Part shown: positions 49,265-53,294 of the stretch, piece after piece | Layout: the number at the start of each line of letters is the position of its first letter | Numbering within the stretch: the stretch's first letter is position 1 | From: Thermoanaerobaculia bacterium | GTDB taxonomy: Bacteria; Acidobacteriota; Thermoanaerobaculia; Gp7-AA8 | Direction: 5' to 3' | Assembly (NCBI GenBank): GCA_017883265.1 | Contig: JADGNX010000003.1 | Span: 1-59,102 of the forward strand | DNA: 59,102 nt | Notes under the pieces: generated by a model | Seen by the model: only the letters and a program-made list of their open reading frames with translations | Database searches by the model: none | Told to the model about the DNA's origin: nothing | Program-made: the position numbers and the translations under genes

Positions 49265-49987
49265 TTACTGCTCCAGGGCGTCGACGATCGCGTTGCCGAT
49301 CTCCTCGTAGCGTCCATCGAAGTGATGCCCTCCCGGCTCCGGGAGCTTTCGAATCAGCTGCGGATCGAGCGTGCGGCAAAGCGAGTCCGGCTCCTTCTCG
49401 CCATACACGCAAAGCATGCGGTAGCCGCGCATCCTCTCGAGCTCCGGCGCCACCGGAAACTGAGCTTCGCGCGGGTGGTAGAACGGGATCCAGCTGGGGT
49501 GATATCGGAAGTCGATGGCCGGCTCGAGACCGAGAAAAGCGACGAGCCGTACGCGTTCGCGGAGGTCGGCTGGAAGGCGGCTGGCCATGAACGGCAGGAT
49601 GTCGGCTCCTCGCGAATAGCCGAGCAGGAGGATCGTGGAGCGATTCCAGCGGAGCATGTACGTCCGAAGGATCCGTTCCAGAGCGCACGCTGATTCTTCC
49701 GCGGTCCGCCTGTCGCGAAAGAAGGCCGGCGTCGAGAAGCCGACAACCGGGATTCCCCGCGCCCGAATGGGGTCGGTCACCTTCGCGTCGATGCGGCGCC
49801 ATCCGCCGTCGCCGGTCAGCATCACCGCAAACGCAGTGTTGGTCGCCCCCGTGGCCGGGAGCTCGACGAGCGGAAGACCGGCGACGTCGGCTCGAGCCGG
49901 GCAAGGCTCAATCGGAGCGCTCTGCGCCGGCGAAGGCGCCGATATGGCAAAAAGCAGGATCGCGCAGATCGGTAGACGGCAATGCAT
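49265..49987 (-). CDS. VirJ/AcvB-type periplasmic alpha/beta-hydrolase (copy 2)
   Basis: A 240-residue exported protein with a signal peptide (M-H-C-R-L-P-I-C-A-I-L-L-F-A-I-S-A-P-S-P-A-Q). The VirJ domain shows L-T-G-D-G-G-W-R near residue 60, the nucleophile elbow G-Y-S-R-G-A-D-I-L-P-F and a C-terminal G-G-H-H-F-D-G-R-Y with the likely catalytic His. AcvB/VirJ proteins of Agrobacterium hydrolyse lysyl-phosphatidylglycerol. Here two copies follow mprF, the enzyme that makes that lipid. It begins 62 bases after copy 1. ATG 49987 is the signal-peptide start; the longer frame to 50161 is shadow. Confidence 0.82.
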   Translation of the reverse strand: MHCRLPICAILLFAISAPSPAQSAPIEPCPARADVAGLPLVELPATGATNTAFAVMLTGDGGWRRIDAKVTDPIRARGIPVVGFSTPAFFRDRRTAEESACALERILRTYMLRWNRSTILLLGYSRGADILPFMASRLPADLRERVRLVAFLGLEPAIDFRYHPSWIPFYHPREAQFPVAPELERMRGYRMLCVYGEKEPDSLCRTLDPQLIRKLPEPGGHHFDGRYEEIGNAIVDALEQ

Positions 49988-50049
49988 GCGGCGAGGAGAA
50001 CCGCTTGCCGGGCACACGTCATCCCGATGGCTGAACGAAGCCGGTGACG

Positions 50050-50745
50050 CTACTCGAGGTGGTCGAGAATGAGTTGAGCCAGCTTCTCGTATCCGCCGTC
50101 GAAGTGATGGGCCCCTTTCAGCGTCTGGATCACCACATTGGGCGCGCTCAGCTGCGGACAAAGCGAATCCTTGTCGTCCTGACCCCAGATGCAGAGGACC
50201 CTCTGCTGAGTGATCTTATCGAGCTCGGGACGAACTGGAAGGCCGACGGCCGCGTCGCGGAGCCAGTCGCTCATGTGAAACTCGAACTGCACCTTTGGAC
50301 TGGGGCCGAGCAACGCGATCAGGCGCACCCGCCCGAGTGCCTCCGGTGGCAATCGATTCGCCATCGCCGGAAGCACATCCGCTCCGCGCGAGTATCCGAT
50401 CAGGATCACGCGGCCTCTCTGCCAGATGGCAGCGTAGTGCTCGATGATGCGCTGCAGGTCGCGGGAGGCGTTTTCGGGAGTGCGCCGGGTCCAGAAATAA
50501 TCGAGCGCGTTCAAGCCGACGACCGGCATGCCTCGATCGGCCAGCACGCGCGCTATCGATCGGTCGATGCTGGCCCAGCCCCCGTCGCCCGAGATGAAGA
50601 TCACAAAAGTGTCCGAAGCTCCCTTGCTGGGAACCTCGATCAGGGGCAGCCCGAGCGCAGCGGCGCCGGTTGCCGCCCCCAACCGCGTGGAGGGAGCGGC
50701 CGCGAGGAGCAACGCCAGTCCGAGGACAGCGACGCGGGGGCTCAC
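50050..50745 (-). CDS. VirJ/AcvB-type periplasmic alpha/beta-hydrolase (copy 1)
   Basis: 231 residues, paralogous to the next gene. It has a signal peptide (V-A-V-L-G-L-A-L-L-L-A-A-A-P), F-I-S-G-D-G-G-W-A, the nucleophile motif L-I-G-Y-S-R-G-A-D-V-L-P-A-M and G-A-H-H-F-D-G-G-Y near the C-terminus. The GTG start overlaps the mprF stop by four bases (GTGA), so it is translated with mprF. Retention of the Ser-His motifs in both copies argues that both are active, perhaps on different aminoacyl-phospholipids. The substrate is inferred from family and context. Confidence 0.82.
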   Translation of the reverse strand: MSPRVAVLGLALLLAAAPSTRLGAATGAAALGLPLIEVPSKGASDTFVIFISGDGGWASIDRSIARVLADRGMPVVGLNALDYFWTRRTPENASRDLQRIIEHYAAIWQRGRVILIGYSRGADVLPAMANRLPPEALGRVRLIALLGPSPKVQFEFHMSDWLRDAAVGLPVRPELDKITQQRVLCIWGQDDKDSLCPQLSAPNVVIQTLKGAHHFDGGYEKLAQLILDHLE

Positions 50746-53294
50746 TTGGAGACCACTCCGCGGATACCACCGGATATGAGCGCGGCCAGGTTGGTCAGAA
50801 TGATCGGCAGGACGAGTCCGCCGGGGGAGGCCAGATACGTCGGCTCCCAGTGCGGATCGAACTTCTCCTTGTATTGTCGAAGCCCCTGAAAATTGTAGAA
50901 GTTCTCACCAAAGCGATATGTCAGTGCCCCCAGGCGATTCCAGAGAGGTCCCAGCGAGCGATTCTCCAGTCCCGAGAGCGGGGCCATTCCCAGGTTGAAC
51001 CAGCGATAGCCTTCCGCCTTGCCCCATAACATCAGCTCGAGGAACATGTAGTCCATCGTCCCCGAGGGTGCGTCTGGTGTCTGGCGCATGAGGTCGACCG
51101 AAAACTCTTTCTTTTCACCGCCGCACCACAGATTCGCAAAGGCCACGATGCGGTCGCCCCGTTTCACGACGCAGAGCGGAAAGCGGCGTATGTAGTCCTC
51201 GACGAAGAATCCGAGGGAGAAGCCTTTCTCTCGGGTTCTCTTCTCGGCCAGCCAGGCGTCTGAGATCGCCCGGATCTCGGCGAGATGCCCATCGACATCG
51301 GGCTGCGGAATGATCTGAAAGCTGCAACCCTCCGATTCGATCCGACGCTGCAGCTTCCGAAGCCATTTGCGGGATCCGCCCTCCAGGGAAAAGTCGTCCA
51401 GCGGGACGCGTGCTTCCTCGCCGATCTTCTGGATAGCCAGTCCGAGATCGATGTAGTACGGAAGATTATCGCGCTGCACCTCGTAGAAGACAGGCCAGCC
51501 TGCGTGCAGATCGCAGAGCTGTCGGAACTTCCAGATGAGCTCTCTTCTCTCTTCCGACGGACCGACCGGGTCGCCCATGGAGATCCAGCTGCGCCCTTCG
51601 ACCCCGTACATGATGAAAGCACGTCCGCTGTCGCTGAAGAGAAGCGGCTTGTCGCCCAGAAGTGCCAGGGAGGCCGCGCTGCTGGGATCGAAGGCTGCTA
51701 TTTCCTGGGCCCGCTGCAGAACCATGGCGCCGGGCAGGTCCGGATCGGGAGGGCTCGGCCGCAGCAGGCGGGCGATGGCGAAGAAGAGAACCCCGCCGAG
51801 AACACCGACCGATGCGCGGAGAAAACGGGGTGCGTCGCCGCGAAAGCTGAATCGCCACCAGAGATCCTGAGAGTAGTCCACATGCTTGTAGGAGAAGAAA
51901 CCGAGCCACAGCGAGCAGATGAGAACCAATGCGATGGCAGCGATCCATCCAGGGGTGAACGCTTCGCTGAAGAGCTTGGTCCGCCGATAGAAATGCCGCC
52001 GCGAGGCGATGAGCGTCAGCAGCATGACCAGGACAATTCCGGCTTCCTCGAAGTCGAGCCCCTTGAAGAGTTGAAAGACCATGGCCGCGCTGAGCACCAC
52101 GACCGTCAGATGGTATGCAGCATCCAGTCTCCGCTGCAGTCCTCGCGCGAGCAGGAGCAACCCGGCCCCTGCGATGCTGCCGAGAAAGTGGGAGAGCTCG
52201 ACGATTGGCAGGGGAAAGATGTGGCGGAGCTGCGCCGTGCGGCTGTGAATCGTCGGGGTGGCTCCGGAGAAGAGCAGGACAGCGCCGGCAACGAATGTGG
52301 CGAAGGCCAGAATCGTCGGCGTGATCCCCGGTGCCCATCGACCGAAGAGCCGCCCTACGCGAGCCACCCCCTCACGTCGCTCGAGAACCTCGTGCGTCCC
52401 GAGGAGAATCGTCGCAACGATCAGAGGAAAGAGATAGTAGATGGCGCGGAAGGCCAGCAGCGATCCGAGGATTGCCGCCGCCGGGAAATAGGGCGCCAGG
52501 AGCAGCAGCATGAGCGCTTCGAAAACCCCCAGCCCTCCTGGGACGTTGCTGGCGACACCTGCGATCTGAGCGAGGAGAAAGAAGGCCAGAAACCGGATGA
52601 AGGTGAGAGGGAGCGCATCGGGGAGCAGGACATACAACACGCTCGCCGCAATCAGCCAGTCGATCAGAGAGATCGCTGCCTGGCCGATGAAAATCGGGAT
52701 GGTCGGAAGCGGGAACTCCCAACCGCGCACCTGGATCGGCCGGCGGTGGCCGATGATCCACGCTGCGTAAAACACGGGGGGGATGAGCAGCAGCACTCCA
52801 AGGAGCCGGATGGAGGCGAACGGGATGTGGACCGACAGCGGAAGGGGCGGAGGGTGGAGCAGAAAAATGCCCCCGGCGAGCAGAACGAAGCCAAGCCAGA
52901 AACTGATGGCGCAGAATGCGATGACCTTGGCCACGTCGATGGTCGACAGCCGCCATGCGGTGTAAAGGCGATAGCGGAGCGATCCACCGACCAGCCCCGA
53001 CATTCCCATGGTGTTGTTGAACGCGTAGCCGATGAAGGAGGCCAGAGCGATCCGCCCGTAGGCCATCGGCTGCTGGATGTAGCGGAAGGCCAGCGTGTCG
53101 TAACCGGTCATGACCATGTAGCCGCATAGCGTCAGCAGCACCGAAAGCATGAGGCGCTCGGTTCCGATCGTGCCGAGATACGCCATCACCTCGCGGTAGC
53201 GGTACGCAGCCAGAGTGTGCTGGAGGATCCTGAGCGAGATCGCGAAGAGCGCGACGACGATCAGCGGTTTTAGGAAAGGCTGAAGCCGCTTCAT
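50742..53294 (-). CDS. mprF: Lysyl-phosphatidylglycerol synthase/flippase MprF
   Basis: An 850-residue bifunctional membrane protein. The N-terminal two-thirds hold about 13-14 transmembrane helices: a flippase domain of the UPF0104/LPG_synthase_TM type with N-N-T-M-G-M-S-G-L-V-G-G-S-L-R-Y-R and the N-V-P-G-G-L-G-V-F-E motif, then more helices. The C-terminal ~300 residues form the cytosolic GNAT-like DUF2156 domain, which transfers lysine (or another amino acid) from tRNA to phosphatidylglycerol. This lowers surface charge and affects cationic-peptide resistance. A TAGAAT hexamer ends 8 bases before the ATG. It heads an operon with two VirJ-type hydrolase genes. Confidence 0.93.
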   Translation of the reverse strand: MKRLQPFLKPLIVVALFAISLRILQHTLAAYRYREVMAYLGTIGTERLMLSVLLTLCGYMVMTGYDTLAFRYIQQPMAYGRIALASFIGYAFNNTMGMSGLVGGSLRYRLYTAWRLSTIDVAKVIAFCAISFWLGFVLLAGGIFLLHPPPLPLSVHIPFASIRLLGVLLLIPPVFYAAWIIGHRRPIQVRGWEFPLPTIPIFIGQAAISLIDWLIAASVLYVLLPDALPLTFIRFLAFFLLAQIAGVASNVPGGLGVFEALMLLLLAPYFPAAAILGSLLAFRAIYYLFPLIVATILLGTHEVLERREGVARVGRLFGRWAPGITPTILAFATFVAGAVLLFSGATPTIHSRTAQLRHIFPLPIVELSHFLGSIAGAGLLLLARGLQRRLDAAYHLTVVVLSAAMVFQLFKGLDFEEAGIVLVMLLTLIASRRHFYRRTKLFSEAFTPGWIAAIALVLICSLWLGFFSYKHVDYSQDLWWRFSFRGDAPRFLRASVGVLGGVLFFAIARLLRPSPPDPDLPGAMVLQRAQEIAAFDPSSAASLALLGDKPLLFSDSGRAFIMYGVEGRSWISMGDPVGPSEERRELIWKFRQLCDLHAGWPVFYEVQRDNLPYYIDLGLAIQKIGEEARVPLDDFSLEGGSRKWLRKLQRRIESEGCSFQIIPQPDVDGHLAEIRAISDAWLAEKRTREKGFSLGFFVEDYIRRFPLCVVKRGDRIVAFANLWCGGEKKEFSVDLMRQTPDAPSGTMDYMFLELMLWGKAEGYRWFNLGMAPLSGLENRSLGPLWNRLGALTYRFGENFYNFQGLRQYKEKFDPHWEPTYLASPGGLVLPIILTNLAALISGGIRGVVSK

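Follow-up and report, generated by a model that had tools for sequence, protein, structure and literature searches.

Turnover of aminoacyl phospholipids has mostly been described as one synthase working against one eraser. AcvB and VirJ have both been proven to hydrolyze lysyl-phosphatidylglycerol (Lys-PG), and lpiA and acvB have been proven to form an operon (PMC13197417; PMC13135905). The window analyzed here, a 59,102-nucleotide stretch of DNA from a Thermoanaerobaculia bacterium, contains an mprF gene followed by two genes for hydrolases of the VirJ/AcvB type, here called copies A and B. Why would one synthase be accompanied by two erasers? Comparison with relatives and with characterized enzymes suggests, with a probability that we put at roughly 0.6, that the three genes form an operon for aminoacyl-phospholipid homeostasis in which copies A and B divide their work by substrate. 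Two long-diverged erasers conserved in one operon offer a natural pair for finding the determinants of substrate choice. The operon also bears on whether the MprF of Acidobacteriota makes more than one product; we found no study of lysyl-PG in this phylum in the open-licence literature.

An mprF gene followed by two hydrolase genes

The three genes are consecutive and all on the minus strand (49265-53294). The first, mprF (50742-53294, minus strand), encodes a full-length bifunctional aminoacyl-phosphatidylglycerol flippase/synthase of 850 residues. Residues 6-842 match the NCBIfam model bifunc_MprF (NF033480) with 970 bits, passing the cut-off of 600 of this equivalog for proteins that combine flippase and synthase. 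The synthase domain (PF09924, 7.3e-98) is encoded at 50829-51683 on the minus strand, and the score for PF03706 is 32.3, marginally under that model's own cut-off of 33.4. Among solved structures, the protein matched MprF (586 bits) and LpiA (562 bits) over its full length with almost tied scores; we take the better of the two to be the Ala-PG-type MprF of P. aeruginosa. Positions D765, R768, and K840 of P. aeruginosa MprF, which are presumably catalytic, are kept in the window protein. LPG_synthase_C has a single match in the whole assembly.

Copy A (50050-50745, minus strand) encodes 231 residues from a GTG start codon that shares four bases with the TGA of mprF (GTGA, 50742-50745, minus strand), and the two genes are likely translationally coupled through this overlap. 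Copy B (49265-49987, minus strand) encodes 240 residues when read from the ATG at 49987, 62 nt beyond the end of copy A. This start is preferred and a GTG at 50017 is possible; the TTG at 50161 that opens the longest mechanical frame falls inside copy A. Both products are single-domain VirJ/AcvB-type hydrolases with a signal-peptide-like N-terminus. The Pfam model VirJ (PF06057, cut-off 22) covers the whole catalytic domain of each, with 206 bits for copy A and 164 bits for copy B, and has only these two matches in the assembly, a 3.9 Mb draft genome. Copies A and B share 42% identity. The original prediction of an mprF gene with two such hydrolases behind it, the first overlapping mprF by four bases and the second a diverged copy, was therefore accurate.

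The closest solved relative of both copies is Agrobacterium AcvB (PDB 9xhm/9xhn), matched by sequence through its catalytic C-terminal domain (E = 9e-49 to 4e-44 for copy A and 1e-29 to 4e-30 for copy B, with 4e-44 and 1e-29 for the C-domain of 9xhn); sequence comparison found no other solved relative of either copy. AlphaFold2 models of the two proteins (mean pLDDT 90 each) have the alpha/beta-hydrolase fold. A Foldseek comparison of these models with the PDB gave generic alpha/beta hydrolases and domain 1 of Brucella VirJ (9rc4); the AcvB structures were absent among the matches listed, and we use the comparison as confirmation of the fold only. Neither copy has the two-domain architecture of AcvB, in which an inactive N-terminal domain is fused ahead of the catalytic one. 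We rejected the possibility that AcvB has been split here, with one gene for its N-domain and one for its C-domain, since both products match the catalytic C-domain.

The two copies are an old, vertically inherited pair

Co-occurrence was assessed in 61 related genomes. VirJ and a strong MprF were found together in 14 of them and a strong MprF alone in 3; VirJ was never found alone, and 44 genomes had neither (Fisher 3e-11, uncorrected for relatedness). The relatives in the window's own family group are MAGs named Thermoanaerobaculia, Acidobacteria/Acidobacteriota, or gp7. Within this Thermoanaerobaculia family VirJ was detected in 11 genomes; all 11 carry copies A and B side by side, and 7 of them have the order mprF-A-B on one strand. 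Three genomes of one genus have the pair intact with mprF elsewhere, and a more diverged pair is placed ahead of mprF in one genome (G015). Wider synteny was rejected: of 11 further genes that neighbor the operon in the window, none was kept within about 6 kb in the relatives, in a search for which the three operon genes served as positive control.

A phylogeny of both copies had been suggested as a check. In a FastTree phylogeny of the VirJ proteins, copies A and B fell into separate clades with support of 0.998 and 0.982 when the diverged G015 pair was set aside; the deep branching order was poorly supported. The distance matrices of the two groups correlate (Mantel r 0.77-0.90), and both copies have dN/dS values between 0.09 and 0.24. 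The separate clades with correlated distances indicate that the pairing is old and vertically inherited, and the dN/dS values indicate that it is under purifying selection. The divergence of A from B is probably older than the Thermoanaerobaculia family.

Both copies look like working enzymes

Mutational evidence is available for AcvB residues Ser336 and His433, for Asp271 and Asp340 of the acidic head-group site, and for Trp378 and the hydrophobic residue 379 of the membrane loop (PMC13197417). Our alignments place counterparts of Ser336, His433, Asp271, Asp340, and Trp378 in both window copies. The nucleophile corresponding to Ser336 lies within a GYSRGAD motif in each and is Ser119 in copy A (50389-50391, minus strand) and Ser125 in copy B (49613-49615, minus strand). 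Loop positions 378/379 are W-L in copy A and W-I in copy B. The catalytic serine and histidine and Asp271 are kept in all 11 orthologues of copy A and all 11 of copy B, and Asp340 is kept in 11/11 and 10/11, respectively, with Glu in the remaining copy B protein. Because the catalytic, head-group, and loop residues of AcvB are present in both, the copies look like two working enzymes and not like an enzyme with a relic, and we infer by analogy with AcvB and VirJ that both are aminoacyl-PG hydrolases.

The G-Y-S-R-G and H-H-F-D-G motifs pointed out originally are indeed found in both window copies. The Asp of the second motif is not a feature of the copy B group, since 9/11 copy B orthologues carry H-H-F-A instead. 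The N-termini of both groups, judged by eye, are hydrophobic and signal-peptide-like and have no lipobox; they lend no support to the suggestion that the two hydrolases act in different compartments.

Residues that set copy B apart

To describe copy-specific residues, we compared the 11 copy A and 11 copy B proteins with 63 other catalytic domains. The residue at AcvB position 302 is Trp in 59 of the 63 and in every copy A protein; it is Arg, Gln, or Glu in copy B (Trp in 0/11). Position 366, which adjoins the substrate glycerol in a published docking model only, is Ser in copy A and Glu in 10/11 copy B proteins, and Glu occurs there in 5/63 of the other domains as well. The membrane loop is one residue shorter in copy B than in copy A. 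Given the loss of Trp302, the gain of Glu366, and the shortened loop, a changed lipid preference of copy B is plausible; no other feature of the sequences speaks for a division of labor. The earlier idea that the hydrolases act on different aminoacyl-lipids is thus possible and gains some support from positions 302 and 366 and the loop.

Position 370 is the one specificity residue that has been published, with Asp as a marker of Lys-PG selectivity (PMC13197417). The window has Gln at this position in copy A and Asp in copy B, so an Ala-type and a Lys-type enzyme could be proposed. From position 370 alone this assignment was rejected: 8/11 copy A orthologues carry Glu, and an acidic residue predominates here in copy A as well as in copy B. 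Because copy A has mostly Glu and copy B Asp, position 370 does not cleanly separate the two. A Ser-to-Thr replacement at position 269 in copy B was considered as a sign of lost activity and dismissed, since Thr is found in 18/63 other catalytic domains. Most copy B orthologues have one Cys near the N-terminus and another within an ESACAL motif (Cys29 and Cys101 of the window protein), both absent from copy A, and a B-specific disulfide is possible.

Proposed function and alternatives

In the mechanism that we propose, MprF would transfer an amino acid from tRNA to phosphatidylglycerol in the inner leaflet and the product would be flipped outward. Copy A would be exported to the periplasm, use its Trp/Leu loop to dock on the outer leaflet, and cleave the aminoacyl ester to give PG and the free amino acid. 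Copy B would be exported to the same compartment and use the same Ser-His ester cleavage, with a distinct head-group/glycerol pocket retained since a divergence that preceded the family. Its preference would most likely be for another aminoacyl-lipid, one with a different amino acid or with a different lipid that the same MprF makes or scrambles. The MprF step and the cleavage by both copies are modeled on the biochemistry of AcvB and VirJ (PMC13197417; PMC13135905), and the tuning of copy B on residue patterns. At somewhat less than even odds, copy B may constitute a new specificity class, recognizable by the missing Trp302, Glu366, and the shortened loop, that clears a second MprF product, for example one with another amino acid or aminoacyl-cardiolipin. 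If this is true, a single synthase is countered by a pair of dedicated erasers across a family of soil Acidobacteriota. The locus was originally described as a lysyl-phospholipid make-and-remove operon. Homology to AcvB and VirJ and the co-occurrence with MprF support the make-and-remove part; the lysyl part is not established, since the amino acid used by MprF is not readable from its sequence.

Copies A and B might instead be redundant, or differ in dosage or regulation and not in substrate, which we consider unlikely. The catalytic residues are intact in both, two copies in one operon could simply serve to raise dosage, and for a strain with two Lys-PG hydrolases the published explanation is regulation and not substrate (PMC13135905). 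Separate regulation, however, fits poorly with two genes in a single operon, and redundancy rarely persists across many genera when pure. Redundant copies would also not be expected to be only 42% identical, each constrained (dN/dS about 0.1-0.2) and each with group-specific fixed residues.

It is less probable still that copy B is merely co-transcribed and acts on something other than an aminoacyl-phospholipid, for instance another periplasmic ester. Such a role would fit the absence from copy B of Trp302, which is otherwise near-universal, and the pocket change at Glu366, as well as the separation of the A+B pair from mprF in three genomes and the existence elsewhere of a related third paralogue without Asp340, Trp378, or an mprF neighbor. 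Nevertheless, copy B retains the head-group residues Asp271 and Asp340, and among the 61 relatives the pair was never seen in a genome without a strong MprF.

A role for copy B as a regulatory or docking partner of copy A or MprF, in the manner of a stand-alone inactive AcvB N-domain, is highly improbable. This idea draws on the usual adjacent gene, which encodes two hydrolase-fold domains of which the first is inactive, where the window has two genes, and on the proposal that the AcvB N-domain restrains the membrane loop (PMC13197417). Yet copy B scores 107 bits against the AcvB C-domain and -0.5 bits against the N-domain, and its catalytic Ser and His and Asp271 are invariant in 11/11 orthologues. 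Finally, a recent local duplication or an assembly artefact, as the tandem location on a draft metagenome contig could suggest, is refuted by the 42% identity, by the separate clades, and by the presence of the pair in 10 further genomes.

Comparison with known systems and other arrangements

As in the window, the gene for a bifunctional MprF/LpiA synthase-flippase precedes one for a VirJ-family Ser-His hydrolase in the lpiA-acvB operons of Agrobacterium and Rhizobium (AcvB, AtvA). There the hydrolase is periplasmic and acts on aminoacyl-PG, and AcvB shares its catalytic, acidic-pocket, and membrane-loop residues with both copies. In AcvB, however, an inactive N-domain and the catalytic domain make up a single protein, whereas the window has two single-domain genes with complete catalytic sets. 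The VirJ protein of octopine Ti plasmids is like the window copies in having a single catalytic domain and in being a second hydrolase in its cell; it has a signal peptide, and the window copies have signal-peptide-like N-termini. It differs in being encoded on another replicon, not in an mprF operon and under vir regulation, and it is a truncated acvB derivative, whereas copy B is an ancient tandem partner. In the mprF-PA0919 pair of Pseudomonas (Ala-PG synthase and hydrolase), mprF also adjoins a gene for a VirJ-family hydrolase, and the window MprF is about equally close to P. aeruginosa MprF and LpiA; that system has one hydrolase gene only, with Thr/Ser at position 370. Two Pseudomonas species grow less well in fungal exudates, in terms of fitness, when either mprF or virJ carries an insertion (PMC10516422). 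Cells thus seem to depend on the synthase as well as the hydrolase of such modules, with polar effects possible.

In named genomes, mprF is commonly followed by the gene for a two-domain AcvB. Wider samples of 396 Acidobacteriota, 399 Pseudomonadota, and 150 Gemmatimonadota genomes contained no two adjacent catalytic single-domain copies outside the window's family. Seven other Acidobacteriota (L117-L123) likewise have two VirJ-family hydrolase genes per mprF operon, but the front one lies upstream of mprF and has diverged far (D271E), and behind mprF comes a gene of the two-domain AcvB type; L130 is a weaker eighth case. Because this layout differs from that of the window, operons with two hydrolases probably had more than one origin in Acidobacteriota. 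The pairing of synthase and hydrolase is known; an mprF operon in which two complete single-domain hydrolases are conserved in tandem appears to be new, since we found no report of one in the open-licence literature.

Several more diverged VirJ-type genes were encountered among the relatives. In G041 (L043:6556-9984), mprF is followed by a single, strongly diverged gene of this type with Gly at the Asp340 position. The third VirJ paralogue lies next to a PAF-acetylhydrolase/PETase-like alpha/beta hydrolase in G008 (L044:6235-7224) and G006 (L046:6691-7437), with no mprF nearby. In G010 (L045:4990-9470), this paralogue carries D340G and has lost Trp302 and Trp378. It is flanked there by a glutamine-synthetase-like gene on one side and a FemAB-like/GNAT transferase on the other, with an arginase-family gene after the transferase. 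All of these genes share one strand, and the group is possibly another module for attachment and removal of amino acids.
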